A stretch of 64,000 nucleotides of DNA from positions 1 through 64,000 of the IMG/VR virus record IMGVR_UViG_3300017987_000013, one strand, 5' to 3'. The stretch's first letter is position 1. Every line of letters begins with the position of its first letter. This document shows, piece by piece, positions 2,492 through 64,000 of this stretch. Under the pieces are notes generated by a model. That model did no database searches and had not been told where the DNA came from. It saw nothing but the letters and a program-made list of their open reading frames with translations. The DNA comes from a virus. The translations under genes and the position numbers were made by a program.

Positions 2492-2494
2492 AGA

Positions 2495-3858: not shown

Positions 3859-3865
3859 CAACACC

Positions 3866-4429: not shown

Positions 4430-4445
4430 CCCGAAGGAGAATCAG

Positions 4446-4625
4446 ATGTTCCTATTCTGGAAGTTGCACAAAAAAACACAGGGCGCAGTAACCTACACGT
4501 ACCGTCCTCTTCGCGGGATTTGGTGGGTCGGTTGTGTTCTAGGCGCGTGGCTCGCAGGAGGCGCAGGTGGCGCAATCTTCGCATTCTTGGCCGGACTCGA
4601 CATTACATGGGAGACCCATCGATGA
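4446..4625 (+). CDS. Small single-pass membrane protein
   Basis: A 59-residue protein with a basic N-terminal segment, the sequence RPLRGIWWVGCVLGAWLAGG and a further hydrophobic stretch (AIFAFLAGL). This predicts one or two membrane passes. AAGGAG lies 7 nt before the ATG. Its stop overlaps the start of the repeat-protein gene (ATGA), suggesting coupled translation. Confidence 0.55.
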   Translation: MFLFWKLHKKTQGAVTYTYRPLRGIWWVGCVLGAWLAGGAGGAIFAFLAGLDITWETHR

Positions 4626-5518
4626 CACACTACTGGAAGGTACTCAAGGCTGATTATTCACCACCACTACAAGGCGGCCCGCCAATCTGTGACGGCAAAG
4701 CATGGCCTGTGGTCCTACCAACAACGCGTCTCGACACATCGATGGACGACTGCGGCGCAGGATGGAACTGCACACGCGAACCCGACACGGCAATTCGTAT
4801 TGCCGGCATGTGGGGACGACTGCTAGTAGTGGAACCAAGCGAGGATGTAATTGAGCGAGGCGATAAGTGCCGGTCTTCTAGGATGACGTTACTACGAGAG
4901 GCAACCGAACATGAGTGGTACGAAGCCATAAAAGCGTTCTCGTGGCCGTTTATGGACGTACCCGCGATGGTCACAGAGCAAGTGCAATGGCTGAACGCAA
5001 TACACAGCCAGGTGGTTGACAAACAGGCCGTAGAACAAGGGTTGCGCGATGCACTAAAATCGCGGGGGCTCGATTGGTCCGTGAAGCGGTACTGGAATGC
5101 GTGGAATGCGTGGAATGCGAGGGATGCGTGGGATGCGTGGAATGCGTGGAATGCGAGGGATGCGTGGAATGCGAGGTGTGCGTGGGATGCGTGGAATGCG
5201 AGGTGTGCGAGGAATGTGAGGAATGCGAGGTGTGCGTGGGATGCGTGGAATGCGTGGAATGTGTGGAATGTGAGGAATGCGAGGAATGCGTGGAATGCGT
5301 GGAATGCGTGGAATGTGTGGGATGCGAGGAATGCGAGGTGTGTGAGGAATGCGAGGAATGCGCTAACGGTCTACTACACCGCCTCAATGGGCTGGACCGC
5401 ACAAGATCCCATGCTACTCACTACCGGATTGCGTGACGCCTACACCAACGGTCTAGATATCGCCATTCCGACTGGACCGAATGAGTTGGGATATGTAATG
5501 CAGAGGAACGCAACATGA
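4622..5518 (+). CDS. Trp-Asn-Ala tandem repeat protein
   Basis: A 298-residue protein. Residues 1-157 form an ordinary domain ([19 protein letters not shown] at the start, with a conserved-looking [21 protein letters not shown]-like stretch). Residues 158-247 are 30 tripeptide repeats, mostly Trp-Asn-Ala, Trp-Asp-Ala, Arg-Asn-Ala, Arg-Asp-Ala and Arg-Cys-Ala. The last 50 residues are again ordinary. The start at 4622 overlaps the previous stop. An upstream in-frame ATG is less likely because it would overlap the membrane-protein gene. Tryptophan every third residue would give a helix with a strongly aromatic face, or a repetitive fibre. I know of no characterised homologue. Confidence 0.65.
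5093..5362 (+). repeat. Nonanucleotide minisatellite, 30 copies
   Basis: Thirty contiguous 9-bp units, of the forms TGGAATGCG, AGGGATGCG, TGGGATGCG, AGGTGTGCG and AGGAATGCG/TG, with no interruption. Because the unit length is a multiple of three, copy-number changes keep the gene in frame. The tract is free of stop codons in more than one frame on both strands, so overlapping frames here (Cys-Val-Glu-rich on plus, Ser-Thr-His-rich on minus) are by-products. Confidence 0.95.
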
Positions 5519-5847
5519 AACCGATCCAAACATGGAAGTGCATCGTCAAGCGGCACCACTGTGACATAGTGCGCACCGACCGCGAAGTAGGTAAGCATGT
5601 GGCGATCGTCCCCGTTGCCGATGACACCGACATCGTAGACGCCGAGTATCTAACCAAGGCAGCTACCCACCACGACGCCCTTGTGGACGCCCTTGACGAG
5701 CTGGTAGCCGAATTCGACGCCGAGCAAGAGGAGATCGCCAAGGAACCCAGCCACATCGGAAGGCCCGATACGGGCGGGATCGCCTACGCTCATATAGTGC
5801 TCACATTCATCAACGCCAAACCCGGACATGCAACGGAGGTACGATGA
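5515..5847 (+). CDS. Hypothetical acidic protein
   Basis: A 110-residue acidic protein with an amphipathic helix (LVDALDELVAEFDAEQEE) near the middle. Its ATG overlaps the stop of the repeat-protein gene (ATGA) and its own stop overlaps the next start (ATGA), so it belongs to a tightly coupled run. Function unknown. Confidence 0.6.
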   Translation: MKPIQTWKCIVKRHHCDIVRTDREVGKHVAIVPVADDTDIVDAEYLTKAATHHDALVDALDELVAEFDAEQEEIAKEPSHIGRPDTGGIAYAHIVLTFINAKPGHATEVR

Positions 5848-6239
5848 CGACGCCCATTAGAACCTACGGGAACCGGGAGCACTGCCAAGGCTGTGACCAG
5901 GACCGCGATTGCCTACCCTACCTCGTGCATTGGGACCTGCATTGGGACCACCTCGACGTCATGGAACACGCGAGTGACGAGTGGGAAATCACGCAACGGG
6001 CCTACTATTGCCCTGTATGTGCCGAGCAGGTAGAGCGCGAACAAGCCATCCAGGGCTGGAAGGTTGAAGAGTTCGCGGTCGATTGGCGCACGGTAGCCGC
6101 CGAGCTGGTGTTACATGCCAGTTCGGTGGTCCTACGGCTGGACCTAGCCGACATAGAGAAGGGGAGCCCGCTGTGTTCGGCTCTCCGCGAACCACTACGA
6201 CACGCCATTATCGACATGCGGCGTGCGATGGAGGAATAA
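5844..6239 (+). CDS. Zinc-finger-like hypothetical protein
   Basis: A 131-residue protein with two metal-binding-like pairs near the N-terminus, CQGCDQDRDC and YYCPVCAEQVE (about residues 15-24 and 55-65). The rest is helical. It overlaps the previous gene by 4 bp. A nucleic-acid or protein interaction role is plausible but not shown. Confidence 0.6.
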   Translation: MTTPIRTYGNREHCQGCDQDRDCLPYLVHWDLHWDHLDVMEHASDEWEITQRAYYCPVCAEQVEREQAIQGWKVEEFAVDWRTVAAELVLHASSVVLRLDLADIEKGSPLCSALREPLRHAIIDMRRAMEE

Positions 6240-6243
6240 CACG

Positions 6244-6468
6244 ATGGCTGAACAGAAATTTCTCGGGACTCTCAATAAAGGTGGGACCGTCCCGCAGATA
6301 GCGGAACGCGACCACGAAGGCACGTTACGATGCTTGGTATGCGGTGGCCGCACAGGACACGAGGCCCTAGTGACGCGCCCGGCACCCCACCGCCTAAGTG
6401 GGGCGATCTGCCATTGCTGGCCACATGAGGTCGCAAACATCATACAAGAGGACGCAACCAATGAATAA
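6244..6468 (+). CDS. Small protein with a Cys-x-x-Cys pair
   Basis: A 74-residue protein with RCLVCGG and a later CHCWPH, possibly one zinc site. The ATG at 6244 follows GGAGGAATAACACG. Its end overlaps the next gene by 8 bp. Confidence 0.55.
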   Translation: MAEQKFLGTLNKGGTVPQIAERDHEGTLRCLVCGGRTGHEALVTRPAPHRLSGAICHCWPHEVANIIQEDATNE

Positions 6469-6721
6469 CATCGAAAAAATAGCCCGCGCGTTACTAGACC
6501 GCGTCTCCGAAACACGAGCGCGACACCTACGTAGCGGGTTCCACGAGAGCCACCCGTGCGGTGGTTGCCATTTCTGGTCTGGATATGAGGCCGCTCTACG
6601 CGACGTGTTGAGCCGACAGCTACCAACCAACACTACGCTGAACCACAAACGCGCGTGGGCAACACCAGAGAGGGGCGAATGGAGAGGAGGCTTTGTCGAG
6701 AGCAAGGCTAATAAAAGCTGA
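6461..6721 (+). CDS. Hypothetical protein
   Basis: An 86-residue protein beginning MNNIEKIARALLDRVSETRA. It has a HPCGGCHFW segment that may bind metal and a helical second half. The start overlaps the previous gene by 8 bp. Confidence 0.5.
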   Translation: MNNIEKIARALLDRVSETRARHLRSGFHESHPCGGCHFWSGYEAALRDVLSRQLPTNTTLNHKRAWATPERGEWRGGFVESKANKS

Positions 6722-6799
6722 GGGACGTGGGGCTCCGGCCCCACGGTAAAGCCGAAGCCGGGTCCCAACGCCCGGCAGTTACTCAAACAGGAGGGTATT
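6722..6799 (+). promoter_or_regulatory. Twin hairpins and leader motif (copy 7)
   Basis: The first hairpin is GTGGGGC-TCCG-GCCCCAC (6727-6744), a 7-bp stem with a stable tetraloop. The second is GCCGGG with CCCGGC (6757-6776). ACTCAAACAGGAGG then follows at 6781-6794, 5 nt before the next ATG. There is no T tract, so RNA processing or stability is as likely as termination. Confidence 0.55.
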
Positions 6800-7144
6800 A
6801 TGGCAAGAGAAGAGATACACGGATTCGCGAACGTCAACGAACCACCGCTTGACCCATGGCAGTTGATGGCGCAGGTCGAGCAATGGTATGCGAAGTGTAC
6901 AGAAGTAGAGTATACGGACGTAGACGACGCGCTCCAGATGATCGGGGAGTTGATCCGCACGATGAAACACATCCTCGTCCGCCCGCGTTTCGTGCAAGTC
7001 AGCTACGGGGAAGGTCCAGACTACAGGGAGTTGTATGCAGTTGATGACAGCGGCCAAGTGTGGGAATACGCACACTCGGACTCCACCGAATGGACAAGGC
7101 CCCAAGGTTGGCACCCACTGAACATGAGGAGGCATGAACAATGA
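6800..7144 (+). CDS. Hypothetical protein
   Basis: A 114-residue protein. The C-terminal half (YGEGPDYRELYAVDDSGQVWEYA, then PQGWHPL) reads like a short beta-propeller-blade or KTSC-like strand pattern, and the N-terminal half is helical. I cannot name the family. GGAGG of the leader precedes the start. Confidence 0.55.
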   Translation: MAREEIHGFANVNEPPLDPWQLMAQVEQWYAKCTEVEYTDVDDALQMIGELIRTMKHILVRPRFVQVSYGEGPDYRELYAVDDSGQVWEYAHSDSTEWTRPQGWHPLNMRRHEQ

Positions 7145-7365
7145 TAGATGACGACGGGGTGATCCGGTACGATGCAGGATATGGCCGCGTCGGCCTCGTG
7201 TTCGGCAAGGAAGGACACTGCAAGGGCTGTGGCGAATACACAACCTGCGTAGTTGCCGACACCAGTGAATCCGAATACGAACCTGCGACGGTGTGTGGGG
7301 CTTGCCTCGCCCGTATCATGTCGAGAATACAATCGGAGTGGCCAGCAGAACACCATATAAACTAA
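7141..7365 (+). CDS. Zinc-ribbon-like protein
   Basis: A 74-residue protein with HCKGCGEYTTC and VCGACLARIM, two CxxC knuckles 24-28 residues apart, as in small zinc ribbons. It overlaps the previous gene by 4 bp (ATGA). Confidence 0.6.
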   Translation: MIDDDGVIRYDAGYGRVGLVFGKEGHCKGCGEYTTCVVADTSESEYEPATVCGACLARIMSRIQSEWPAEHHIN

Positions 7366-7378
7366 GGAGGAACCCAGA

Positions 7379-7531
7379 ATGCAGTTAGGCGAAGAGCAGG
7401 AGCTACTCGAAGTCGTGCCCCAGCATCTACCAATCGAGGAGGAAGAGCCAAGTGAACCCGTACATAACCCCGAACCCGTTGAAGAACCTGTACATAAACC
7501 AGAATCCGTACCCGAACCCGTCGAGCGATGA
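7379..7531 (+). CDS. Short Pro-Glu-rich peptide overlapping the next gene
   Basis: A 50-residue acidic peptide with PEPV-type repeats (EPVHNPEPVEEPVHKPESVPEPVE). A strong AAGGAGG lies before the ATG, so this start is well supported. The last 80 bp are read in another frame by the next gene. The repeat-like composition in both frames suggests this segment grew by slippage. Confidence 0.45.
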   Translation: MQLGEEQELLEVVPQHLPIEEEEPSEPVHNPEPVEEPVHKPESVPEPVER

Positions 7532-8273
7532 CTACGAGCTTAAGAACGGGCTGTGGCGAAGGAAAGCGACGAGCGACGACGGGGTGTATTCGCTCGACAT
7601 CCCCGCTAGTGCTACGTTGGCCGCAACATTTCCAAAGTGGGTGCCGGGCGCTGACGAGGAAGCGAAGCCAGAAGAACCCAAGCCCGCGCGTCGTGTTCAA
7701 GGCCCGCTCTACGGTTGGCGCTGGTGGGTTCTGGTACACGAGAAGGACGGCTGGCGATTACGATCAACGACGCGCAACTATGTGTGGGAAGGCCCAACGA
7801 AGGCCGCGCACAAACGGCCGGCGCTTGAAGGTGCAACAGGAAAGGGACTCATGGGTGTGGTTTTGTACGGGGCCTACGATACCGCGGGTATCCACTGCTA
7901 CGACACGAAACAACAAGCGATCGCCCGTTTGTCAGATACCGTCTCTGAAATAAGTCGGTCGACCTCTGTACTCGGGTGTGTGGAGGTTTCCGGTACCGTG
8001 GTGCGACACGAACATGGGTATCGCGCCGAGAAAGCAACGATACAGGGTCTCACGATGTTCCGACGCGACCACGAGTCGTGGACGGACTTCGGATGGATGC
8101 GCGAGAAGATCGAGCCCACACCCGAACAGATCGCCGACCTTGAAGAGACGTACCAGGTAGACGTTGTGATCGAAGACGTGATCTCAGGCGATGCAACGCG
8201 CGACGAGTACAACGCGGAAGAATGTTTTCCGAACCTACCCTGTGGCGACGAGGAACGGACGATTGAGCTGTGA
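7452..8273 (+). CDS. Conserved hypothetical protein (GYRAE motif)
   Basis: A 273-residue protein. The core (about residues 75-210) has YGWRWWVL, then GIHCYDTKQQAIARL, then LGCVEVSGTVVRHEHGYRAE. This pattern is found, from memory, in small proteins of unknown function in phages and actinobacteria. The predicted GTG start at 7452 lies after GAGGAGGAAGAG. The first 30 residues are low-complexity and Pro/Asn-rich, and translation could start later. The C-terminus is acidic. Confidence 0.6.
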   Translation: MNPYITPNPLKNLYINQNPYPNPSSDDYELKNGLWRRKATSDDGVYSLDIPASATLAATFPKWVPGADEEAKPEEPKPARRVQGPLYGWRWWVLVHEKDGWRLRSTTRNYVWEGPTKAAHKRPALEGATGKGLMGVVLYGAYDTAGIHCYDTKQQAIARLSDTVSEISRSTSVLGCVEVSGTVVRHEHGYRAEKATIQGLTMFRRDHESWTDFGWMREKIEPTPEQIADLEETYQVDVVIEDVISGDATRDEYNAEECFPNLPCGDEERTIEL

Positions 8274-8294
8274 GGGTAGAAAAACCCTCACAGC
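8267..8294 (+). terminator. Perfect 10-bp hairpin over the stop codon
   Basis: GCTGTGAGGG (8267-8276) and CCCTCACAGC (8285-8294) pair perfectly around TAGAAAAA and include the stop codon of the preceding gene. No T tract follows, so this is either a weak terminator or an RNA-stability element. Confidence 0.4.
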
Positions 8295-8357
8295 CCTCCG
8301 TTCACCTCACACGCGGCCATTCTGGCCCGTCACAGCGATTTCTAAGGGGGTTCGCAA

Positions 8358-8576
8358 ATGACAAAAGCAGCACAAGAAGCGGATATTCGCGAAGGGCTGT
8401 GTCCGCAGCGCGGCGCACTGAGCGGCCAGTATCACAACGACCGCATCATGTGCCCCGTCTGCGGTCGGCACTTCAACATCAAAAATGAGCAATGGATAGC
8501 GCAACGCCGGTTACCACGACACAAACCGCTACGGAGTAACCATGAAGAACGAAGAACTCAAAGCCGCAATCAGTGA
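8358..8576 (+). CDS. Small zinc-finger-like protein
   Basis: A 72-residue protein with CPQRGAL followed by IMCPVCGRHFN, one likely zinc site. AAGGGGG lies before the ATG. The basic C-terminus overlaps the next gene by 35 bp in another frame. Confidence 0.5.
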   Translation: MTKAAQEADIREGLCPQRGALSGQYHNDRIMCPVCGRHFNIKNEQWIAQRRLPRHKPLRSNHEERRTQSRNQ

Positions 8577-9846: not shown

Positions 9847-10209
9847 TCATGCACTCACCGCCCTTGTTGCTGCCACACGTCGCTGTCTCCGGTGATCCAC
9901 ACACAACCCGCTTTCGTGTGTGGTTTTGAAACGACAGCCTAACTCTGCACAGAACTGTGCTTCGTTGCGCCAACGCTCACCGTAGTGTTTTTCGCAATAC
10001 TTACCGACCGTGGCGGGTTTACCACAGCGTAGACACGCATGATGTTTTATGCGGTGAAGGTGGACATACCGGACAGCCCAATCCTCGCCAGACAACTCAA
10101 ACGCGCCTACGTATCCGCAATCCCAACACCGCGCCTTTGCGATCGGCTCGTAGCCACCATACGCACAACCACACCGCATACAGCACAAGAGTCGGATTGC
10201 CTCTTTCAC
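9847..10209 (-). CDS. Cys-rich zinc-binding protein
   Basis: A 120-residue protein with at least four cysteine pairs (CCMRCG, CWDCG, CLRCGK, CEKH, CAELGC, CVDH), which could make two or three small zinc knuckles. The GTG start at 10209 carries GGCGGTGAGTGC, also seen before the alternative RuvC start. A longer GTG-started frame exists to 10272. Function unknown. Confidence 0.55.
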   Translation of the reverse strand: MKEAIRLLCCMRCGCAYGGYEPIAKARCWDCGYVGAFELSGEDWAVRYVHLHRIKHHACLRCGKPATVGKYCEKHYGERWRNEAQFCAELGCRFKTTHESGLCVDHRRQRRVAATRAVSA

Positions 10210-10286
10210 GCACTCACCGCCTTTGCGATAGCGCGGCGCGCCGCACCAGTAGATCCTCCCACCAACCGCCACGCTGCCACACGCTG

Positions 10287-11489
10287 TTAGTCGTTGTCAT
10301 TGTCGGCTCCCGTGATGCGGTCGATCTCAGAGATGATGCGAAAGGTTGCGCAACTAATGCCGCCGTACGCCGCAAGCCTCGTTGGGTCAGTGTCCGTCGC
10401 GCGCTTTTGTATTGCAGCATCGCGTTCCGTCTCCACCACCTCGCGTATCTGCGCAATTTGGCGGTCACGTTCGGAGATTATGTCTTCACGGCGCTCCAGA
10501 GCTTCGAGCTGTGCCGCGCACTTAGCGCGGAGGTCGTCGATTTCGTCGGCTGCATCATGCAGCATTCGCGCATCTGCCCCACCCAGGTAATACGCTGACG
10601 AGACCTCACCATAGAGACGTAGACAAAGACGGTTGGTACCCTCATACACGCCGTCGTCTCCCTGCATCTCCTTAAGTTGGGCGCGAAGGTCAGAAGACCC
10701 GCTAGCCTCGCCATACGGGTTTTCCTTGGCCCACGTAGCGCTAGCGTCTGCCGCAAGGTCGGCCCATGATGCCTGTTCGCGGTCAGCGTCGTCTGTGGCC
10801 GTAGGGTCGCCCGGGTTTGCCGCATTCGGCCCGTCAGGCAAAGGAGAGGCGGAGCCGCCCGACGTACTGGGGCTGTCGGGTACATCTGTAATGGCGCCCA
10901 CGGTTTCTTGACACCGTTCGGGCTGGCTCTCTTTGTGCTCCACGGAGTCCGCAATACCACCATCAGTTTCGTCCGCTTCTGCTAGATCCTTATCGGGCCT
11001 CTCGTCAACAATAGTGGGTTTCCACCCTGGCAAGTCTGCTGTCCGGCATTCAATCGTTGCAAGAGTTGCAGACGAGGGGCCGCTGGCCTCGGACTCAGAC
11101 GCCTGACCGGGCTGTACAGTTGGATGCAGATCAGCGTCAACCCCTGTAGCAGCGTGCCCCTCGGTTGCCCGTTTGGTCCGGTCTCGTGCAGCGTTCCAAC
11201 CTTCGATGAACGCTTCGCATACCACCTTAGCAATTCCTCGATCTATAGACCATTGCTCATAGAGTATCGTATTCCCGTACCATACCTGCCACAGGCCGTT
11301 GGGGTATTCGGGGCTGTAAACACGTTTTAGTTCCAATTCCTCACGCATCGTCGCCTCCGTTCGGTATATGTGCGGCCTCAACAGCTCCAAAGCGTTCTCC
11401 AGCAGCGCGACGGCAGGTGTGACGGCGTGTGCCGGATGTGAGGGGTCGTTGATCTCGTCATAGTGTAGGGGCGGAGTGATCTTTGGCAT
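10287..11489 (-). CDS. Hypothetical protein with disordered centre and C-terminal coiled coil
   Basis: A 400-residue protein. The N-terminal 110 residues look globular (LENALELLRPHIYRTEATM, then YGNTILYEQWSIDRGIAKVV). Residues 115-245 are low-complexity, acidic and rich in Ala, Pro, Ser and Asp. The C-terminal third is a predicted coiled coil (LRAKCAAQLEALERREDII, continuing to about residue 365). The start is 2 bp after the previous stop. I do not recognise it. Confidence 0.6.
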   Translation of the reverse strand: MPKITPPLHYDEINDPSHPAHAVTPAVALLENALELLRPHIYRTEATMREELELKRVYSPEYPNGLWQVWYGNTILYEQWSIDRGIAKVVCEAFIEGWNAARDRTKRATEGHAATGVDADLHPTVQPGQASESEASGPSSATLATIECRTADLPGWKPTIVDERPDKDLAEADETDGGIADSVEHKESQPERCQETVGAITDVPDSPSTSGGSASPLPDGPNAANPGDPTATDDADREQASWADLAADASATWAKENPYGEASGSSDLRAQLKEMQGDDGVYEGTNRLCLRLYGEVSSAYYLGGADARMLHDAADEIDDLRAKCAAQLEALERREDIISERDRQIAQIREVVETERDAAIQKRATDTDPTRLAAYGGISCATFRIISEIDRITGADNDND

Positions 11490-11490
11490 C

Positions 11491-11760
11491 CTACGGTCCT
11501 TCCCATTCTGGAAGTTGTTCATATTCGTAGTCAGTCATGTACTTGATGGTCACCAGAAACGAACTGCCATCGGCGCCACCCTCAAGCCACGACTTTACCG
11601 CCACCATAGCAGTGTCCAGGTCCCGCTCAGTCGCCCGAGAGTAGTTACCTGTTGGCCCGATTACATATCGCGGCTTCTTAGTGGTCATGTAGTACACCCC
11701 TGCACTCGCTGGGTAAGCAGCTCCTGTCGCCGCTAGCAACGCTTGCTTTAGGTTAGTCAT
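11491..11760 (-). CDS. Hypothetical protein
   Basis: An 89-residue protein starting MTNLKQALLAATGAAYPASA, with GGGAGAAATCTCG upstream of the ATG. A YVIGPTG and a WLEGGADGSSFLVTIKY stretch suggest beta strands. It is in the run of coupled small genes. Confidence 0.55.
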   Translation of the reverse strand: MTNLKQALLAATGAAYPASAGVYYMTTKKPRYVIGPTGNYSRATERDLDTAMVAVKSWLEGGADGSSFLVTIKYMTDYEYEQLPEWEGP

Positions 11761-12046
11761 CGAGATTTCTCCCAACACAGTTCACGTCTGCAATAGTTTC
11801 CGGTAGCGGGCGGTACTGGTGCGTGGCGTCATCCGCTTCTGTTAGGTCTGTTGCGGCCTCCCATGCAGCATCCAAGTTCGTTTCGACGAGCACTTCAACC
11901 GCCGCATCCCTAATTTGTGCTATCGCCGTCCTTAGTTTGATGATCTCTTCTCTAAAGCGGGCGTTCTGCGTGTGCAACTCCAAACAGTCTTCGCGAGCCT
12001 CTATAGATTCTCTTAGACAATTGTGATGGTAACTAGCATCAACCAT
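11753..12046 (-). CDS. Hypothetical coiled-coil protein
   Basis: A 97-residue protein with a helical N-terminal half (LHTQNARFREEIIKLRTAI). The C-terminus reads TDLTEADDATHQYRPLPETI. Its ATG directly follows the stop of the upstream gene (TAATG). No function assigned. Confidence 0.5.
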   Translation of the reverse strand: MVDASYHHNCLRESIEAREDCLELHTQNARFREEIIKLRTAIAQIRDAAVEVLVETNLDAAWEAATDLTEADDATHQYRPLPETIADVNCVGRNLDD

Positions 12047-20310: not shown

Positions 20311-20335
20311 AAGTAACATCTCCTTTGAAGTAAAA

Positions 20336-20406
20336 AGGACCACGGGGATTCGAACCCCGGCCACTGGATCGACAATCCAGCATCCTAGCCGCTAGACTAT
20401 AGCCCC
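20336..20406 (-). tRNA. tRNA-Asp (GTC)
   Basis: On the minus strand a cloverleaf reads with acceptor GGGGCTA/TGGTCCT (wobble pairs included) and anticodon arm CTGGA-TTGTCGA-TCCAG with anticodon GTC. The T-arm has the loop TTCGAAT and the stem CGGGG/CCCCG. The 3' CCA is not encoded. It sits alone between two protein genes, unlike the array at 58.7-59.8 kb. Confidence 0.9.
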
Positions 20407-53978: not shown

Positions 53979-56186
53979 CTACCCAAGAACGGCACCACCG
54001 CCCGTTTGAGCCATTTCATTAGCTACAGCTCTTTCATCGGACTGTTTTGGTGCGGTCCCCGCCGGCTGGTCGTTTTGTGGCTGCGCACCCATCATTTGCG
54101 CCGCTATCTTGGCCTGCCAAGCGTAATATCCGTCTAACCGACGCAATGCAGCGTGCCGCGCAATAGGGTCGGCGGTTTCATCTTGTGTGATTTCGGTGAG
54201 TGAATTGATGTGTGCCTGCAGATCGTCGTTCCGCATGATCGGGTAGGACAGTTCCACTTGTTTCCATACCGCGAGAGCATACTGTTTCACCCACGGATGG
54301 TTCATGCCCCACTCTTCGAACCCAGTGTTTTCGCGAATATCGTCCGCAAGAACGTGGAACTTACTGGCGATTTCTTTGGCCCTGCGTAGCGCAACAACCT
54401 TCGGTTCGGCCCGGTGCACAAAAATGTCTTGGTTGGGATATGCGCGCCGCGCCTCTTCGGTGAGCAAAAACGGCATGCCATCACCGCCACGAACCTGCAT
54501 CAATTCCAATAGTTCCTGAGCCCTGAGTTCCGGACTCGGACCAAAGGAATTAACCATTCTATATGAGGGCGGCCGATCAGACAGCTTCGTACGATCGATG
54601 TACGGTTCTGCCATGTGCTGGTAATCGTCGCCGACTATGTCCACCATCATGCCGATGTCGCCGTACATCTTCATCTGTTTCCAGTTCTTCTGTGCGAAAT
54701 TGCACATCGAACGGCGGAATCGCATGTTGACAGGCGCATGTACACTATTGTCAGCCACCTGCAGAGCCATGATCGCCTTGGCGGCCTGTCTCGAGCCAGC
54801 TGACTCACCGCGAGATGCTGCCTGATACCCGCCACCACGCCAAATCGCCTGTCGTTTCTCGGCGATCGTTTTCTCAAGACCAGTCAGGACTTCGGCGGGC
54901 CACTGCGGCACGCGCGGCGTAAATCCACCCAGGCTCGGATCGACCTCGATAATGTCGTAACCGTTTAGGTTCAGCATATCGCTAGGCAAGGCACCGCCCG
55001 GCGCGATCATCGGCGTATTCTTCATCTTCTGCAGATATTCCCAATACTCCGACAACGCGATGTTGAGATCGACCTGATTCGAGTCGAGATCCTCAATCCA
55101 CGGCTTACCGAGAACATCGTCGCTACGCTGATGAGAATAGATATTCTCAAAAGAGAAATCCCCGCCCGGAAGCTCGTTGTCGTACAGCAGAACCGGATTG
55201 CGCATCCGCGACCGTTCGGTGGTCACTTCAGGTACCGCGATGATCTGTAGCCTGCCGCGCGGCCAAGCCGTCTCGAATCCAGGCGCTACCTCACGGCAAA
55301 CGATGGTCATCAGTTCTTCGGGTTGCCGACTACGGTGTGTATCACCAACGACCGCCGACCCGTGTCTACCGATGCCATCAAGATTCCATTTCGATGCTAT
55401 CCGTTGCCACTGCGACGCACTCGGCACCCGATCAGTGCCCTGAAGCTCCATAACACCCGGCATATGGCCGAAAGTGTCACGAACCGCCTGCGCTGGCAGC
55501 ACACGTCCATATGAACACCAATGGACTGACCCACGTTTCGAACCGTTGTTGAACACCGTGTCAAACGGGTTCCCAACCCATATTTCGACATGACCGGCTT
55601 TGCCGTCCAATAGATGTTCGATCTGGGCCATGGGGCCGTCTGTGGCAGCGTGATTGATGGGCTCGTGCTGGGTGTAGGAGTTTTCGCACCAATATGTATG
55701 GATTGGGCAAAAACCCGTCGACATCGACATATAGAGCGCGTCGGCGGCCTTACCGTTCAAGTCTTGAGTCCATGCTATGGAATTGATCCACAGCGAATCC
55801 ATTAAAGCCTTCTCACGCGACCGTCTGTCTTGACGTGAGTCAGCGTGAAACTTGAAAGGTGTGGATGTATGGTGGGCTACAGCGTTGTCGACGATCAATC
55901 GAAGGAGGTTTTCTGATTTCTTGTACGGTGAGATGAAGTCCGGAATGACCAGCTTGGTGCTGTCGTACAGTTCGGCAAACTGTAAATCGCCTGATCCATC
56001 TACATGCAACAACAACTTTTCAGACAGAAGATCGCGCCGTCGCCTCGCCTCAAGGCCAGCGAGGTGCATCTCCATGATTTCTTTGGCTGTACTGTCGTTC
56101 GTAACTCGTTGAGCATCGGAAAGCTGGTTTTGCTCAAGAACAGGAGCGACAACCACAGACTCTTCTATAGGCGCGATCGCGGTCAT
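53979..56186 (-). CDS. Portal protein
   Basis: A 735-residue protein at the expected place upstream of the scaffold and capsid genes. It has a segment FSFENIYSHQRSDDVLGKPWIE, then LDSNQVDLNIALSEYWEYLQ and GGYQAASRGESAGSRQA, as in large podovirus portals. The C-terminus is Gln/Ala-rich. The portal forms the dodecameric DNA gate. Confidence 0.75.
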   Translation of the reverse strand: MTAIAPIEESVVVAPVLEQNQLSDAQRVTNDSTAKEIMEMHLAGLEARRRRDLLSEKLLLHVDGSGDLQFAELYDSTKLVIPDFISPYKKSENLLRLIVDNAVAHHTSTPFKFHADSRQDRRSREKALMDSLWINSIAWTQDLNGKAADALYMSMSTGFCPIHTYWCENSYTQHEPINHAATDGPMAQIEHLLDGKAGHVEIWVGNPFDTVFNNGSKRGSVHWCSYGRVLPAQAVRDTFGHMPGVMELQGTDRVPSASQWQRIASKWNLDGIGRHGSAVVGDTHRSRQPEELMTIVCREVAPGFETAWPRGRLQIIAVPEVTTERSRMRNPVLLYDNELPGGDFSFENIYSHQRSDDVLGKPWIEDLDSNQVDLNIALSEYWEYLQKMKNTPMIAPGGALPSDMLNLNGYDIIEVDPSLGGFTPRVPQWPAEVLTGLEKTIAEKRQAIWRGGGYQAASRGESAGSRQAAKAIMALQVADNSVHAPVNMRFRRSMCNFAQKNWKQMKMYGDIGMMVDIVGDDYQHMAEPYIDRTKLSDRPPSYRMVNSFGPSPELRAQELLELMQVRGGDGMPFLLTEEARRAYPNQDIFVHRAEPKVVALRRAKEIASKFHVLADDIRENTGFEEWGMNHPWVKQYALAVWKQVELSYPIMRNDDLQAHINSLTEITQDETADPIARHAALRRLDGYYAWQAKIAAQMMGAQPQNDQPAGTAPKQSDERAVANEMAQTGGGAVLG

Positions 56187-56365: not shown

Positions 56366-56809
56366 TTAGCGCCGCCGGGCTTCAATGGTCCGGATGATAC
56401 GCCGTGCCGTACCTTCTATGTCGCGACCCGCATCAGACTCCCAGAAACGGAGGACGGTCCATCCCTTGCTTTCCAGCGCCTCCGTCGCCAAGGTGTCACG
56501 TTCGGTGTTTCGCTGAAACTTGCCGATCCAGTAGTCCTTGTTGGGTGTCTTCATGCGCTCGCGCACCACCCCAGGGCCACGTTCGCGCAGCAGCCGCCCG
56601 TGCCAGTAATCACCGTCCACGAATACGGCCACCTTCTCGGTCGGGAACACAAAGTCCGGCGTGCCGGGCAGATCTGCGGCGTACTTGCGGTAGCGGTAGC
56701 CGAGGCGGTGAACAAGCTTGCGGAGGGCAGTCTCTGTCTGGTTGCCCGTTGACCTGATGGCTGACATGTTGCGGGCAATCTCGTGCCGGGGCTTTGGCCG
56801 GTAGGTCAC
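56366..56809 (-). CDS. vsr: Vsr-type mismatch repair endonuclease
   Basis: A 147-residue protein with GTG start 1 bp after the HNH gene. The Vsr hallmarks are present: RNMSAIRSTGN, then LGYRYRKYAADLPGTPDFVF, then VFVDGDYWHG (D65, H70 region). Vsr enzymes nick at T:G mismatches that arise by deamination of the methylated cytosine. The neighbouring C5-methyltransferase explains its presence. An internal ATG at 56767 would make a shorter form. Confidence 0.83.
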   Translation of the reverse strand: MTYRPKPRHEIARNMSAIRSTGNQTETALRKLVHRLGYRYRKYAADLPGTPDFVFPTEKVAVFVDGDYWHGRLLRERGPGVVRERMKTPNKDYWIGKFQRNTERDTLATEALESKGWTVLRFWESDAGRDIEGTARRIIRTIEARRR

Positions 56810-56810
56810 G

Positions 56811-57383
56811 CTACGAGCCAAACTTACCACGCAGCCACTTGAAGACGGCTTCTTGTTCTTCGATCCCGGCGCGTCTGACTTGCGACAGAAGCCAAATGGT
56901 GCTCGGCTTCTCGCTAGTGATGTTCTTCGCGCCCTGATTGCAGGTAGAGCACAGGGTGCGCAGGTTGGATAGTTCGTCCTTGCCGCCAAGGCTCTTGTCT
57001 TTGATGTGACCGATGTGGAGCCGCACCTTGCGTCCCGTGGCCGGGTCGACGTCGCCTGGGGTGAGCCCGCACATCTGGCATGTGAACCCATTGCGGTCGA
57101 GTACCTGCGCCCTGAGCTTCGCAGAGATGTTACGTGCGACCTTGGGGATGTCGAACGTTGGTGGCGGTTCCCGGACCATGTACTGTCCAGGCTTAAGACT
57201 TGTGCTATCGTGATGCGAGAGGATCTTCCATCCCTCATCCTCCCGTAGCTCGCGTAGACGGCGGCTGTATTGCACCGCACCACCCGCGGCCTCTTGGATC
57301 TCATGGGACTCAATGACGCGCCCGACATTGGCACAGAGGAACCGGCGGATCTTCTCTTTACCACTTCTAGTCTTTGGGCTCAT
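56811..57383 (-). CDS. HNH restriction endonuclease candidate
   Basis: A 190-residue protein starting at the stop of the methyltransferase (ATGA). Residues 95-155 form an HNH domain: TCQMCGL (C102, C105), LHIGHIKDKSLGG (H123, H126), ELSNLRTLC and CNQGAKN. The N-terminus (1-80) may be a DNA-recognition domain. Together with the methyltransferase it forms the probable restriction partner. Its target sequence cannot be read from the protein. Confidence 0.7.
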   Translation of the reverse strand: MSPKTRSGKEKIRRFLCANVGRVIESHEIQEAAGGAVQYSRRLRELREDEGWKILSHHDSTSLKPGQYMVREPPPTFDIPKVARNISAKLRAQVLDRNGFTCQMCGLTPGDVDPATGRKVRLHIGHIKDKSLGGKDELSNLRTLCSTCNQGAKNITSEKPSTIWLLSQVRRAGIEEQEAVFKWLRGKFGS

Positions 57384-58348
57384 ACTGCCCTCTGCTTTGA
57401 GTGGGCTCCTATGGCGTCGGCCAGGCGCGTACCCACCGCTTCCGCAACCGGCGGCGGAAATGCGTTCCCTACCTGCCGGTACGCCGCGGTCTTGCCCCCC
57501 GCAAAGAACCAGTCGGACGGAAAGCCCTGTAGCTTCGCCGCCATCTCCACCGTGAGCCGGGGCTGGGCATCGACCGGAAAATCCGGACCGGGAGCCTCGT
57601 CGGCGATACCGAGGCCGTCCACTCCCAGCTCCGCCCACTCGCGCCGGGCGCGTGTCGGTCCCAGGTCAGGCCCGCCGTGTTTCTTGGACCCACCGACAAG
57701 AGTAGGGGCGATGGCGTTTGCACGCTTCGCCCATTCGGTAGCCCCCGGCCAGCCCCTGCTTGCCATTGCACGGCGGAGTACGCCTCCGACGGTCGGCGGC
57801 CCACACCTCTTTCCGTTGGGCCACGAGAACCGGGCAAGGTCACGTGCTCGCAGGCCAACTAGAATGAACCTTGGCCGAAGTTGTGGCACACCAAAACTAC
57901 TCGCATTCAGGATGTGTGACACTGTCTTGTAACCCAGCTTCGCTAGATGGCGCTCGAACCACGTTCGGTAGTTCTCGAACTTCGCGGAGCCGAAGCCGCG
58001 GACGTTTTCTATCATCACGGCCCGGGGCCGTACCTCGGATATGACCGTGAGTGCTGCCGGGAAGAGGTCGCGTTGGTCATCGCGGCCCAACTGCTTCCCT
58101 GCAATCGAAAACGGAGGGCACGGAAGCCCCGCAGCCACAAGATCGGCACCTCGGTAGTCGTCGCCGCGAAACATGCGCAGGTCGATCTCGAGCGTGTTCC
58201 AGGTGGGCCGGTTCGCACGTAGCGTCTCACAGCACCAGCGATCATTCTCGACGGTCGCTTCGTGAACGAAGCCCGCACGCTCAAGGCCGAGGGCCTGGCC
58301 CCCGGCACCCGAGCAAAGTTCAATCGACGTGAGGGGCATCTTCACCAT
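57380..58348 (-). CDS. DNA (cytosine-5) methyltransferase
   Basis: A 322-residue enzyme that should transfer a methyl group from S-adenosylmethionine to cytosine in its recognition site. It shows motif I ELCSGAGGQALGL (residues 10-22), motif IV GLPCPPFS with catalytic C77, motif VI MIENVRG (E114), motif VIII QLRPRFILVG and motif X QVGNAFPPP. A target-recognition domain lies between VIII and X. It may protect phage DNA from the adjacent nuclease or from host enzymes. The start was chosen at 58348. Confidence 0.88.
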   Translation of the reverse strand: MVKMPLTSIELCSGAGGQALGLERAGFVHEATVENDRWCCETLRANRPTWNTLEIDLRMFRGDDYRGADLVAAGLPCPPFSIAGKQLGRDDQRDLFPAALTVISEVRPRAVMIENVRGFGSAKFENYRTWFERHLAKLGYKTVSHILNASSFGVPQLRPRFILVGLRARDLARFSWPNGKRCGPPTVGGVLRRAMASRGWPGATEWAKRANAIAPTLVGGSKKHGGPDLGPTRARREWAELGVDGLGIADEAPGPDFPVDAQPRLTVEMAAKLQGFPSDWFFAGGKTAAYRQVGNAFPPPVAEAVGTRLADAIGAHSKQRAV

Positions 58349-58420
58349 GTGGGTTCTCTTTCGCCAGTTAGTCCTTCGGCACGCTTCACAACCCAACTTA
58401 AAACGGACGGGGCGGGGACG

Positions 58421-58751: not shown

Positions 58752-58753
58752 AT

Positions 58754-58835
58754 ACCAGGGGAGAGATTCGAACTCTCACGCTCTAAATGAGCACCGGGGC
58801 CTAAACCCGGCGTGTCTGCATTCCACCACCCTGGC
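58754..58835 (-). tRNA. tRNA-Leu (TAG)
   Basis: Acceptor GCCAGGG/CCCTGGT. Anticodon arm CCGGG-TTTAGGC-CCCGG gives anticodon TAG. The variable arm is long, as in leucine tRNAs. The T-loop is TTCGAAT. CCA is not encoded. Confidence 0.85.
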
Positions 58836-58838
58836 CTG

Positions 58839-59330
58839 TTACCAATTCCGCGCTCGACCCTTGTTCTTTCTACCGCAAAACGTTGGCTGCTGGCTGTTGC
58901 AGTTCGGGCACAGCATCCGCAGGTTTTCGAGTCGATTGTCTCTGCCGTCGCCGTTGACGTGGTCGAGAACCATCCTCAACGGCTTGCCGTGCCACTCCCC
59001 TGTAAGTCCGCAAAGAGAGCATGTGTTTTCTAGTAGCCCCTCTTCTAATAGATGCCGCTTGAGGTGACATCGGGTGTACTTCGAATCTCGCACGAGTATT
59101 TCTTTGAATTGCGCTGGATCGAACTTGCGGCCCGGCTTTCCCTTTTGGTGGGCCTTCCCGAGAAAGTGCGATGTGTCCAGTTCGTACTCTCTCACTCTTT
59201 TAGTGATATAAGAGTGCGTCCCACCGGAGTTGGTCGCTACCCCCAATTCCCTACAAACCTCCGCCATTGTCGTGCACCGAGCCACTATTGGCGCAAGTAT
59301 CTCTTCGGTGTACTTCCGTTGTTTAGGCAT
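58839..59330 (-). CDS. HNH endonuclease inside the tRNA array
   Basis: A 163-residue protein. The N-terminal half (YTEEILAPIVARCTTMAEVC and RELGVATNSGG) has a helix-turn-helix look. The C-terminal half is an HNH domain: NTCSLCGLTGEWHGKPLRMV, DHVNGDGRDNRLENLRMLCP and CNSQQPTFCG. The gene ends 4 nt from tRNA-Leu and begins 42 nt from the degenerate tRNA, so it is inserted in the tRNA cluster. Free-standing homing nuclease is likely. Confidence 0.78.
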   Translation of the reverse strand: MPKQRKYTEEILAPIVARCTTMAEVCRELGVATNSGGTHSYITKRVREYELDTSHFLGKAHQKGKPGRKFDPAQFKEILVRDSKYTRCHLKRHLLEEGLLENTCSLCGLTGEWHGKPLRMVLDHVNGDGRDNRLENLRMLCPNCNSQQPTFCGRKNKGRARNW

Positions 59331-59371
59331 ACTGTAATGTATGCCGTAACGCGCACGTCTGCCAGTCACAT

Positions 59372-59444
59372 ACCACACGTAGGATTCGAACCTACACTAA
59401 ACGCCGTTTGAAGACCGTCGCCTCTGCCGTTGGGCTACCCTGGC
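59372..59444 (-). pseudogene. Degenerate tRNA-like sequence
   Basis: The T-arm GTAGG-TTCGAAT-CCTAC is intact and a D-arm-like segment exists, but the acceptor pairs only about five of seven positions and the anticodon stem does not close properly around GTCTTCAAAC. It is probably a decayed tRNA, perhaps damaged when the neighbouring HNH gene was acquired. The loop contains TCA but this is not reliable. Confidence 0.55.
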
Positions 59445-59448
59445 TCAT

Positions 59449-59521
59449 GTACCCCCTGGGACTCGAACCCAGAATTGCACGCCTTTTGAGGACGCCGCGT
59501 ATGCCATTCCGCCAGGGGTAC
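59449..59521 (-). tRNA. tRNA-Leu-like (CAA)
   Basis: Acceptor GTACCCC/GGGGTAC is perfect. The anticodon loop CTCAAAA reads CAA. The T-arm is CTGGG-TTCGAGT-CCCAG. The variable region is short (about 5 nt), unusual for leucine, so the identity is less certain than for the other tRNAs. Confidence 0.6.
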
Positions 59522-59525
59522 GTAC

Positions 59526-59609
59526 GGAAGGTCGAGGATTCGAACCTCGGTGCGTGGTACCGCAGCCGCGGGTTAGCAACCCGGCCCCTTACCGCTCGGG
59601 CAACCTTCC
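59526..59609 (-). tRNA. tRNA-Ser (GCT)
   Basis: Acceptor GGAAGGT/ACCTTCC is perfect. The anticodon loop TTGCTAA reads GCT. A long hairpin variable arm and a T-arm CGAGG-TTCGAAT-CCTCG support serine. CCA is not encoded. Confidence 0.85.
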
Positions 59610-59612
59610 AGT

Positions 59613-59699
59613 GGCGGGGGCAGGACTCGAACCTGCGGTGTTAATCTCGAGTGAGGTCAGATTTACAGTCTGGTGCGTTCGCCGCTACGCAACCCCGCC
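59613..59699 (-). tRNA. tRNA-Tyr (GTA)
   Basis: Acceptor GGCGGGG/CCCCGCC. The anticodon loop CTGTAAA reads GTA. The long variable arm suits bacterial-type tyrosine tRNA. The T-arm is GCAGG-TTCGAGT-CCTGC. Confidence 0.88.
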
Positions 59700-59750
59700 A
59701 AATGACTCAATAGCTGAGTCGCAATGACAGTCGTAACGATCGAACTAGAT

Positions 59751-59822
59751 ATGGTGGGCGGGACTCGAACCCGCGACCCCCTGCTCCCAAGGCAGGTGCG
59801 CTACCAGCTGCGCCACCACCAT
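59751..59822 (-). tRNA. tRNA-Pro (TGG)
   Basis: Acceptor ATGGTGG/CCACCAT is perfect. The anticodon arm CCTGC-CTTGGGA-GCAGG reads TGG. The T-arm is GCGGG-TTCGAGT-CCCGC. It is the first tRNA after the promoter candidate at 59883-59909. Confidence 0.9.
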
Positions 59823-59882
59823 AGGTCGGTGATGGCTCAGACGGTCGGTCGTCGCGGAATTCAGTTATATCCATGGTCAAAT

Positions 59883-60538: not shown

Positions 60539-60923
60539 CGTCACGCTCCTTCCGCTTTGTCAGTATCTCGGCCCATATATCGTCCCACGTACGGCCAGCT
60601 CGGCGTTGCGCCCATGCCAGGTTGATCTGGTGTTGCCGTATCGCCGGCGGCCAGCCACTGAAATACTTCTGCATATCAACCGGCATTTCGCCCAAATCCG
60701 CCCGTTCCTTGCGCTCCTCTTCGCTGAGGCCGTGCTCAACGCGATCGATTCTCTTAGTGTGGTCCATGAGATCGCTAACCTTTTCCCGCAGATACTCCCG
60801 TTCCTCGAATACCACGTTGAATGCTTCGCGATCGACCATCGAGTTTATCTGCCCCCACAGCTTCTCGTTCTGCGAAAGCACGAGATCGTACAGGGTTCGG
60901 GATACCCAGGGCCAACGGATCAT
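60531..60923 (-). CDS. Helical charged protein
   Basis: A 130-residue protein of predicted helices (NVVFEEREYLREKVSDLMDH, then GWPPAIRQHQINLAWAQRRA). The ATG overlaps the HNH gene (ATGA). Not recognised. Confidence 0.5.
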   Translation of the reverse strand: MIRWPWVSRTLYDLVLSQNEKLWGQINSMVDREAFNVVFEEREYLREKVSDLMDHTKRIDRVEHGLSEEERKERADLGEMPVDMQKYFSGWPPAIRQHQINLAWAQRRAGRTWDDIWAEILTKRKERDDE

Positions 60924-61306
60924 GCCAACCTCTTTGCATATCGGGCGTCGATCTCGGCCTCTTTTTGCTTTAATGCGGCACGAGCTTTTTGAATTGCTTT
61001 TCCACGAGACGGCTGTTGTTTTTGTGGTTTGTTTTTGCGTTTACGCCGTCGTGCGATTTTCCGTTGAGCCTTTTGACCGCGAAATTTCCGGTGCGGGTGG
61101 TAAAACTCATGGCAATCCAGGCATACGTGCTGTAGTTGATATATCTGTTCACTACCTATTGGACCGTTGTACCAAAGGTGGTGAACGTGTTCAGCTTCAC
61201 GACATCCACAACGCTCGCATATCCCCCCAGACCTTTCGCGCACAAGCCTTTTTTTTTCATCCCAACAAGGGTTGTCGCGATACTCAGACTTCACGTCTTT
61301 TTCCAC
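60920..61306 (-). CDS. HNH endonuclease-like protein with basic tail
   Basis: A 128-residue protein, GTG start. ICERCGCREAEHVHHLWYNG, then LQHVCLDCHEFYHPH is an HNH core with zinc knuckles and the His residues. The rest is very Arg/Lys-rich. It sits between the sulfotransferase genes and the small zinc-ribbon genes. HNH genes near the large terminase may support packaging cleavage in some phages. Confidence 0.7.
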   Translation of the reverse strand: MEKDVKSEYRDNPCWDEKKRLVRERSGGICERCGCREAEHVHHLWYNGPIGSEQIYQLQHVCLDCHEFYHPHRKFRGQKAQRKIARRRKRKNKPQKQQPSRGKAIQKARAALKQKEAEIDARYAKRLA

Positions 61307-61833
61307 CTTTCACAGTACCCGAAGTCGAGATCGTAAGTAGGAAGTAGTGGCGACCAGTCATACGGATCCCCGTCCGGTCGATGCCAAATGTCCCGCGATC
61401 GGCCCTTGTTGATATAGGGAAGCCGCGGTAAACCGTACTCCTCGCGCAGTTCTCCCCATCGCTCGGGTAGGTTTTCGAATGGAATTACATCATCTACCCG
61501 AAACCCAGCTGCGCCGTACCATTGCGGCCAGACATGCCAGTCGATGTCCTCAACCCGCTCTTTGCCCAGGATTTCCTGCTGGATCCGTTCGGCGAACGAG
61601 CACTTGTACGGTCCCAATGTGTTGATGATGGCGGTCGTGATGCGCTGCCACGGGTGCCTGACCGGCATGAAGGTGCGACAATTCGCGTATTTCTTCGCCT
61701 CCCCAGGCATTAGCATCGCCTTGACCCCCAACGCGTGCCGGAGCGAGCTGCTTGCTACCTTGCGGTGGATGATCCACAACGTATCGCTCGGTTCGTGGTG
61801 GAAGAAATTGAGGCGCGGCTGAGGCGGTCTCAC
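61291..61833 (-). CDS. Sulfotransferase-like protein 1
   Basis: A 180-residue protein from the GTG at 61833. LWIIHRKVASSSL (residues 19-31) is a 5'-phosphosulfate-type binding loop with K25 and S28/S29. MPVRHPWQRITTAII (56-70) matches the 3'-phosphate-binding motif, and DWHVWPQW follows. The layout is that of the Sulfotransfer_2 family, which uses PAPS to add sulfate, often to carbohydrates. The acceptor cannot be read. It overlaps its paralogue (GTGA). Confidence 0.66.
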   Translation of the reverse strand: MRPPQPRLNFFHHEPSDTLWIIHRKVASSSLRHALGVKAMLMPGEAKKYANCRTFMPVRHPWQRITTAIINTLGPYKCSFAERIQQEILGKERVEDIDWHVWPQWYGAAGFRVDDVIPFENLPERWGELREEYGLPRLPYINKGRSRDIWHRPDGDPYDWSPLLPTYDLDFGYCERWKKT

Positions 61834-62348
61834 TCGCGCTCCCAATCAGGGTTGATGTCGAAATCACGGTAGTACCACGGCTCCAACAAACTCCAGTCGA
61901 AATCCATCTCCCGCCAGTCGTGCGCGTCGCCACGGTTCTTGTGCTGCAACTCCCCATAGTCATACCGGCGCTGCAGATCCGGCCACTCGTTCGTCAGATT
62001 CTCCATCAAGATGTACCGATTTACCTGGAACGCCGCCAATGGCAGCCACTGCGGTAGAAAATGCCAATCGACGTGTACCGGACTCCGTTTCGATAAGATC
62101 TCTTCCTCGATCTTCTGCGCGAACGACCGGTCGTCATCATACGGGTTGTGTGCCGCAGACGTCACTCGCGCCCACGGATGGCGAACCACCGTGATTGTGT
62201 GGAAGTGCCTGGCCGTCAACGCTTTCTCAAGATCGATCATCACGCGACAACCGATCGCTTCTCGTATGGACGATCCCGCCACTTTGCGGTGGATAATCCA
62301 CAGTAGCCGGCGTTCTTCGTCAATGTGGTAGTTCAGAAGCGGTGTCAT
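61830..62348 (-). CDS. Sulfotransferase-like protein 2
   Basis: A 172-residue paralogue of the neighbouring gene. RLLWIIHRKVAGSSIREAIG holds the phosphosulfate-binding loop (K22, S26/S27), VVRHPWARVTSAAHNP the 3'-phosphate motif (R56, R61) and HVDWHFLPQW the conserved His/Pro/Gln stretch. The ATG overlaps the large-terminase stop (ATGA), so expression is coupled with packaging genes. Confidence 0.68.
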   Translation of the reverse strand: MTPLLNYHIDEERRLLWIIHRKVAGSSIREAIGCRVMIDLEKALTARHFHTITVVRHPWARVTSAAHNPYDDDRSFAQKIEEEILSKRSPVHVDWHFLPQWLPLAAFQVNRYILMENLTNEWPDLQRRYDYGELQHKNRGDAHDWREMDFDWSLLEPWYYRDFDINPDWERE

Positions 62349-64000
62349 TTCCTACTCCCGTACCGTTTCTGGAACCGTCGATCCTCCGCCTCCCGACGCT
62401 TCATTACCCGTTCCCGCATACGCTCGAGCCCTGTATCACGCTGCGGCGTTGATTTGACCATCCCCGCAGCCTCCATCTGTTCCTCACTGGCCTTGAGGTC
62501 CTTGGGCATGCGAGCTCGCACGAAATTCCCGTATACGAACGCGTCGCCTTTGTTCGGACTCCGGCCCAAAACCGCCCTAACATCGTCCTTTGAGTCCATG
62601 ACGATCATGCCGTTGCGGGTTGTCCACGTCGCAGCACATAGATCGTCAAATAGCTCTTCGTCGTACGGTAGCGCCACTCGGCCAAGCCGTAGATCCTCTC
62701 GGGCCCGCCAATGAACCTGGGTCCGGAGATCCGCGAACCGTTCGGCCTCAATAATCCGCGGCCCCGATGGCTTCAAGTTCCCTTCGAGGTCTGGTTCGGT
62801 CGTACTCCACAGTGTGTCCTGGTCAAGCCCCGGCACAGCCTTTCGGCCGCCACCGATATGCCTGACCTTGAGCCCTAGCCGGCGCATATGGTTCACGGCT
62901 GAAGCGCCCACACCAACACTATCGATACCGATATATCGTGGATCTACGGGTGCATCTGGGTTATGAGCCTCATTGTAGACTCGATCGCCGACATCATTGG
63001 CGTCGTTGACCTGGAATCGCTGGACTTCTGTACAGCATGCACCTTGCCCTCGCGCGATCGCAGCTGCGTCCCCGGTCGGCTGGTCAGCCACGTCAGCGCC
63101 GATCCAGAGCGGCCCTGCGCGCATCTTCTCGTCTTCGTACTTCCGCGCCGCCGCTTCACACCATTCCCGCCGAATAAGCGCATCTTCGGCCTCTTTCGGC
63201 GAGATGCCGCGAATACGCGACTCGTAAAGGCGCGTACCCTTGAGCATGCGTTTCCGGCGCGCCAACCGGACTTTCCCGATAGCGCCCGGGACGACAATTC
63301 TATCAGTGACGATATTGGGGTGATCATCAGCGCTGATCCGGAGCGCCAAAACGTCTGGATCCTTACAGAACTTGTGGAGTTCGTCGAGCTGGTGGTCAGG
63401 GTTTCCTAGCGCAAGATGGAGATTGTGGTCGTCTGTCCGCGTGTTGTAGATCGCGGCCATGATCGCGGGGTGGATCCCCGGCGTCTCTTCTGTGATGAAC
63501 AGAACGTGTTCAGCGTGGATCCCTTGTGCCTTGGTAGCGGATTCCTCTGAAGCTCCGACTCCGCACACAAACGCCCATGCCGCCCAGACTTCCTTGTCCT
63601 CGACGGCCGGCTTCATGCGCAATACACCGGTCAGAAGCTCGGCCTGCGGGAAGATCGCCTTGAACTTGGGCCACAATCGCCCGATTTCTTTCCAAACCTG
63701 CCCGTAAAGTTGAGCGGCTTTCGGTGCAACAGTGGGCACTAGGGAATCAGGGAAACATGCAAGAAACCAAAGAGTGACACACGCGGCGATGTACGTCTTC
63801 CCTACTCCGGTCGCTGACTCGATACCGACGTCCTGCCAGTTCGCCAGAGCTTCAAGTGTCGTTGCCAACGGGTCCTTGTCGCCGTCCCAATCGTGTTCCT
63901 TGTACCCCTCGTTCAGCGACCATACCAACGTGTTCCGTGGTACGCCGAGGTACTTCTCAATCCACTCAAGCGGTTTTTTCTGGTAATCTGTGTGAGGTTG
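62345..64000 (-). CDS. terL: Terminase large subunit, truncated by the window edge
   Basis: At least 551 residues of the packaging motor. The N-terminus lies beyond position 64000. The Walker A is ESATGVGKTYIA (about 63789-63816) and the Walker B is HVLFITEETPG. The C-terminal nuclease domain starts near PLWIGADVADQPTGD and contains YIGIDSVGVG. The frame remains open to the edge with LEWIEKYLGVPRNTLVW in it, so the true start is outside. The small terminase at the other edge suggests a permuted genome. Confidence 0.85.
   Translation of the reverse strand, partial: QPHTDYQKKPLEWIEKYLGVPRNTLVWSLNEGYKEHDWDGDKDPLATTLEALANWQDVGIESATGVGKTYIAACVTLWFLACFPDSLVPTVAPKAAQLYGQVWKEIGRLWPKFKAIFPQAELLTGVLRMKPAVEDKEVWAAWAFVCGVGASEESATKAQGIHAEHVLFITEETPGIHPAIMAAIYNTRTDDHNLHLALGNPDHQLDELHKFCKDPDVLALRISADDHPNIVTDRIVVPGAIGKVRLARRKRMLKGTRLYESRIRGISPKEAEDALIRREWCEAAARKYEDEKMRAGPLWIGADVADQPTGDAAAIARGQGACCTEVQRFQVNDANDVGDRVYNEAHNPDAPVDPRYIGIDSVGVGASAVNHMRRLGLKVRHIGGGRKAVPGLDQDTLWSTTEPDLEGNLKPSGPRIIEAERFADLRTQVHWRAREDLRLGRVALPYDEELFDDLCAATWTTRNGMIVMDSKDDVRAVLGRSPNKGDAFVYGNFVRARMPKDLKASEEQMEAAGMVKSTPQRDTGLERMRERVMKRREAEDRRFQKRYGSRK

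Follow-up and report, generated by a model that had tools for sequence, protein, structure and literature searches.

The window analysed here is a stretch of 64,000 nucleotides from the 72,339-base record of an uncultured phage, and close to its end two small genes, ST1 and ST2, follow the large terminase gene terL on the minus strand. The features on which the analysis rests are these:

62345..64000 in the window, minus strand: terL, large terminase subunit (phrog_2 match, E 2.5e-21)
61830..62348, minus strand: ST1, compact Sulfotransfer_2-like protein of 172 amino acids, ATG start (ORF list, profile and fold model)
62268..62291, minus strand: putative 5'-phosphosulfate-binding (PSB) loop of ST1, HRKVAGSS (H20-S27; K22 is the conserved PSB Lys), read from the sequence
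62157..62186, minus strand: putative 3'-phosphate-binding (PB) motif of ST1, VRHPWARVTS (R56, S64), read from the sequence
62049..62069, minus strand: DWHFLPQ motif of ST1 (H96, candidate alternative catalytic base), invariant in three clade members
61291..61833, minus strand: ST2, paralogue of ST1, 180 amino acids, GTG start overlapping the ST1 stop
61744..61767, minus strand: putative PSB loop of ST2, HRKVASSS, read from the sequence
61633..61662, minus strand: putative PB motif of ST2, VRHPWQRITT (Thr for the conserved Ser), read from the sequence
61522..61542, minus strand: DWHVWPQ motif of ST2, read from the sequence
60920..61306, minus strand: HNH endonuclease-like gene, overlapping the end of ST2 slightly, same operon
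53979..56186, minus strand: portal protein gene

A preliminary description of this DNA had reported two related genes of 172 and 180 residues in tight coupling with terL, and both points hold exactly. Four nucleotides at the terL-ST1 junction, ATGA, combine the stop of the first gene with the start of the second; the ST1-ST2 junction, GTGA, is built in the same way, and the identity of the terminase is borne out by its phrog_2 match. Such stop-start overlaps are the classical layout for coupled translation. The terL product has 586 amino acids, its gene extending to 64105 in the full record, and for ST2 an alternative TTG start at 61845 is possible, which would give 184 amino acids. With 42% identity from end to end (tblastn E 8.8e-35), ST1 and ST2 are paralogues. 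The HNH endonuclease-like gene is an operon mate of ST2 with no known functional link to it.

One further member of the ST1/ST2 clade was found in another virus, IMGVR_UViG_3300035137_000073 (L005), which carries a single orthologue with 51% amino acid identity to ST1 and to ST2. This orthologue lies between terL and the portal gene, whose products are 64% and 50% identical, respectively, to those of the window phage, so that the order terL, sulfotransferase-like gene, portal is common to both viruses. A second record, IMGVR_UViG_3300017989_002520, contains ST1 at 100% identity and likewise has the order terL-ST1-ST2. Among the three distinct clade genes pS is 0.75-0.85 and pN 0.32-0.43, synonymous change thus being about twice the nonsynonymous with synonymous sites saturated, a pattern consistent with constraint at the protein level. 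The equivalent position of the L005 orthologue and this synonymous excess show that ST1 and ST2 are real genes. Searches for additional members returned no further one by tblastn in GenBank phages and plasmids, no relative in GTDB contigs scanned with a profile of the three clade proteins, and none in 294 genomes of one phylum, in a scan that had no positive control. A scan of viral contigs for the pattern VRHPWxRxT recovered the two known viruses only, together with chance frames, and a pattern match in genome contigs of Mycobacterium montefiorense was also rejected as a chance frame. The clade thus appears to be rare, with two virus species found, and distinctive in its co-translation with terL and its short linker between the two binding motifs.

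Several other features of the region were recorded. A cytosine-5 DNA methylase gene (window 56366-58396, minus strand) adjoins HNH and Vsr-like endonuclease ORFs, and this block separates the sulfotransferase module from the portal gene and appears to be absent from the equivalent interval of L005. Five tRNA genes (Leu, Leu, Ser, Tyr and Pro) are clustered at 58753-59823 on the minus strand, with a single tRNA-Asp apart from them at 20335-20406, and a Twister-P5 ribozyme lies at 6716-6774 on the plus strand (43.2 bits against an Rfam gathering score of 37.6). Beyond the window, at 70145-71908 of the full record (10146-11909 of the locus L004, minus strand), an N6/N4 DNA methylase ORF (PF01555) encloses a good HNH_3 ORF (E 3e-12) that is read from the same strand but in a different frame; the two may be overlapping genes, or a homing gene may have been inserted.

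Assignment of ST1 and ST2 to a protein family depends on profiles rather than on single sequences. In a single-sequence Pfam scan neither protein had a match at E<=1, and the PF03567 (Sulfotransfer_2) gathering threshold of 22 bits was not reached by ST1, ST2 or the L005 orthologue, the last of which aligned in register with 12.8 bits (E 0.13). In the PHROGs scan ST1 gave a non-significant match to phrog_3347 (Galactose-3-O-sulfotransferase), with E 0.027 over 25 residues, and ST2 gave none. In contrast, the profile built from the three clade proteins matched a canonical phage PF03567 protein by hmmsearch with E 2.5e-11 over 157 positions (profile 17-173 of 179), the matched protein itself exceeding the Pfam cut-off at 62-65 bits. 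At a cut-off of E<1e-3 the same profile recovered, from the ORFs of the fetched loci, more than 30 sulfotransferases of phages; from 3414 reversed ORFs it recovered none. Compared by hhalign with an alignment of 17 bona fide Sulfotransfer_2 proteins, the clade profile scored a probability of 98.8 and E 9.7e-17 over 160 columns, which amounts to profile-level homology across the full domain. The profile searches suggested in the preliminary description are therefore silent for ST1 and ST2 singly and give a full-length Sulfotransfer_2 match for the three proteins together, and the sulfotransferase family named there is right, on the evidence of these profiles and of the predicted fold.

From an alignment of 62 rows, AlphaFold2 gave a model of ST1 with a pLDDT of 93.3 and a pTM of 0.88. 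The rows had been picked as homologues and are mostly canonical proteins, so they could steer the model; nevertheless, confidence as high as this would not be expected from a wrong alignment forced onto the protein. With three rows only the model was poor (pLDDT 58.8), and its Foldseek list was still led by SULT enzymes. For the 62-row model, the top Foldseek match among viral models was the sulfotransferase-like protein of Ralstonia phage RSL1 (probability 1.00, TMq 0.72), and the other leading matches were mostly sulfotransferases, with Prochlorococcus phage P-SSM7 among the top. The leading matches in the PDB were likewise sulfotransferases with weak E-values, the best being 0.02. The 62-row family profile also matched heparan sulfate 2-O-sulfotransferase (HS2ST, 3F5F) with E 0.0013, in register at both the PSB and the PB. 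Structure prediction, which had been put forward as a check, thus points to a sulfotransferase fold for ST1.

The two motifs on which the original proposal was based, IIHRKVA-S-S and VRHPW-x-R, are present in both proteins, in the contexts WIIHRKVAGSS and VVRHPWARVTS in ST1 and WIIHRKVASSS and PVRHPWQRITT in ST2. The PSB Lys, PB Arg and PB Ser are the residues that define the PAPS site according to a review (PMC11625862). The Lys and the Arg are kept in all three clade proteins, and the third position holds Ser in ST1, Thr in ST2 and Ser in the L005 orthologue; the eight-residue spacing of R56 and S64 in ST1 recurs as R59 and T67 in ST2, a conservative change. In canonical members the column of ST1 K22 is Lys in 55 of 59 and Arg in the other four. 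It had been asked whether the PAPS-binding pockets are complete: the donor site is kept in these residues, whereas the linker lacks the His region that holds the catalytic base in relatives. Of 59 canonical phage members, 56 have a linker His; the three clade members have none, and the second Tyr of the YY motif, elsewhere near-invariant, is absent from them too. The canonical linker His aligns onto the YHGH segment of HS2ST, which bears the catalytic base H142, and the position of the base is known to vary across PF03567 (PMC11625862).

A possible substitute for this base, which in an active sulfotransferase would be a His or Glu, is offered by the DWHxxPQ motif, which is invariant in ST1, ST2 and the L005 orthologue. 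All seven sequences that the scoring classed as having no linker His carry His at position 96, compared with 25 of the remaining 55 (Fisher p 0.011, a post hoc comparison of few and partly related sequences). The automatic scoring credits ST2 with a linker His through H33 in the PSB helix, the linker proper of ST2 being free of His. H96 is accordingly proposed, as a hypothesis, to act as the catalytic base. Two phage Sulfotransfer_2 proteins, L060 3971-4528 and L082 905-1474, have an equally short and His-free linker together with a D-x-HFRPQ motif; they are independent of the clade and, apart from the missing linker His, look canonical. The rule that absence of the linker His means inactivity was rejected as too strong, since the phage proteins of L060, L082 and L093 also lack it yet keep the second His.

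Phage sulfotransferases are not new, and neither are close groups of them, so the earlier statement that no characterised system of this shape is known goes too far: proteins of phrog_3347/PF03567 are widespread in phages and often occur as close pairs or larger groups. A pattern scan of viral contigs yielded 451 stretches, 367 of which encode Sulfotransfer_2 relatives, and both PF03567 and phrog_3347 were matched by 59 of the 62 members of the alignment used for modelling. At least two copies stand close together at 34 of 80 sampled loci (within the fetched flanks, not deduplicated), some loci having up to five; L100 3111-6362, for example, holds five consecutive Sulfotransfer_2 genes on one phage contig. 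Proximity to terL is unusual. In the 24 records where a phrog_2 terminase could be detected, a sulfotransferase gene lies within about 4 kb of it only in L005, L079 and L069, and otherwise roughly 6 to 90 kb away; comparison of terL neighbourhoods, also proposed earlier, thus confirms the arrangement in L005 and does not extend it to most relatives. Because such genes and multicopy groups are common in phages, the novelty lies in the compact, linker-His-less variant coupled to terL.

The explanation to which about half of our confidence goes is that ST1 and ST2 are duplicated, compact and divergent PAPS-dependent sulfotransferases that use host PAPS late in infection, most likely on a glycan of the host envelope. 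The HRKVAxSS loop, together with the helix start VRHPWxRxTS, would bind PAPS made by the host, and sulfate would be passed to the acceptor, possibly with H96 as the base. Late action is suggested by the co-translation of both genes with terL. Neither an APS kinase nor a family-2 glycosyltransferase was found in the full record, so the donor and probably the acceptor would be host-derived, and a host-envelope glycan would be the most economical candidate. A more specific version, in which the DWH His has taken over in this clade as catalytic base from the linker His and translational linkage to terL yields a sulfation step alongside the packaging machinery, with the virion or the lysing cell surface as a possible target, is improbable.

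Among the alternatives, the most probable holds that both proteins are catalytically dead: they would have kept the nucleotide site without the base and would serve, perhaps as a sink or a regulator, through their binding of PAPS, PAP or a sulfated ligand. It is unlikely, at a level that still deserves attention: the linker His and the YY motif are gone from all three members, and the H142A variant of HS2ST still binds PAPS with less than 1% activity (PMC6094399). Nevertheless, the retained donor-site residues and the invariant DWHxxPQ in ST1, ST2 and the L005 orthologue speak for catalysis, as do the otherwise canonical appearance of the L060 and L082 proteins and a base position that is not conserved across PF03567 (PMC11625862). 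It is also conceivable, with rather low probability, that ST1 and ST2 form a heterodimer in which a single copy is active and the second acts as a divergent partner or regulatory subunit, as the tandem co-translation, the Thr that replaces the PB Ser in ST2 and the single copy in L005 might suggest, but ST1 and ST2 are about equally far from the L005 protein (51% each).

Two further readings abandon either sulfation or the host acceptor. That ST1 and ST2 are accessory packaging proteins or other phosphate-binding P-loop proteins with no role in sulfation, such as a terminase partner, would fit the four-nucleotide coupling to terL and the terL-portal placement conserved in two viruses; the profile and fold evidence favours sulfotransferases, however, and relatives in other phages are mostly distant from terL, which leaves this reading very unlikely. 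An equally slim chance is given to sulfation of the phage's own virion or of a modified nucleotide, for which the late operon position is the sole point in favour. Against it, the genome has no family-2 glycosyltransferase, no gene for nucleotide hypermodification was noticed in an unsystematic look among the scanned proteins, and the literature searched offers no precedent.

With PAPS-dependent sulfotransferases as the preferred reading, the pair would represent a minimal version of the enzyme, overlooked by Pfam and PHROGs, whose active site is altered and whose position within the packaging operon is fixed in two viruses. Environmental phages often carry sulfotransferase genes, though the function of these has been described as unclear (PMC10580990). 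Being small and expressible, ST1 and ST2 lend themselves to the questions of which molecules phages sulfate and whether sulfotransferases can do without their usual base.

Comparison with known systems places the pair at varying distances from its relatives. The marine phage contig L079 resembles the window phage in having sulfotransferase genes soon after terL, but a 261-amino-acid gene intervenes after terL and the contig shows no relation to the window portal protein; by profile it carries up to four Sulfotransfer_2-like genes (1214-8534), two of them strong and complete, with uncharacterised ORFs interspersed. The Ralstonia phage RSL1 protein (B2ZYD5) is the best structural match to ST1, but it has 285 amino acids and 20% identity. 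The Sulfotransferase family proteins of Prochlorococcus phage P-SSM7 and Synechococcus phage ACG-2014f and the sulfotransferase of Stenotrophomonas phage DLP6, annotated singly among hypothetical genes, are phage-borne and share the fold or family of ST1 and ST2 at low identity. HS2ST (3F5F, 4NDZ) has its PSB and PB in register with the family profile, but it is a eukaryotic Golgi enzyme whose catalytic H142 lies in the YHGH segment that the clade lacks. The canonical PF03567/phrog_3347 phage proteins are longer (median 202 amino acids against 172-186), have xPK where the clade has HRK and RNP where it has RHP, and, unlike the clade, possess the linker His, the second Tyr of YY and a C-terminal Tyr. 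They are nevertheless colinear with the clade over the full length (for example IMGVR_UViG_3300018080_000152, L016), and the two groups have in common the PSB Lys, VR[NH]P..R..S, HxxPQ, the FEN helix, N-x(n)-[YW]R and the Y..D[IF] C-terminus.
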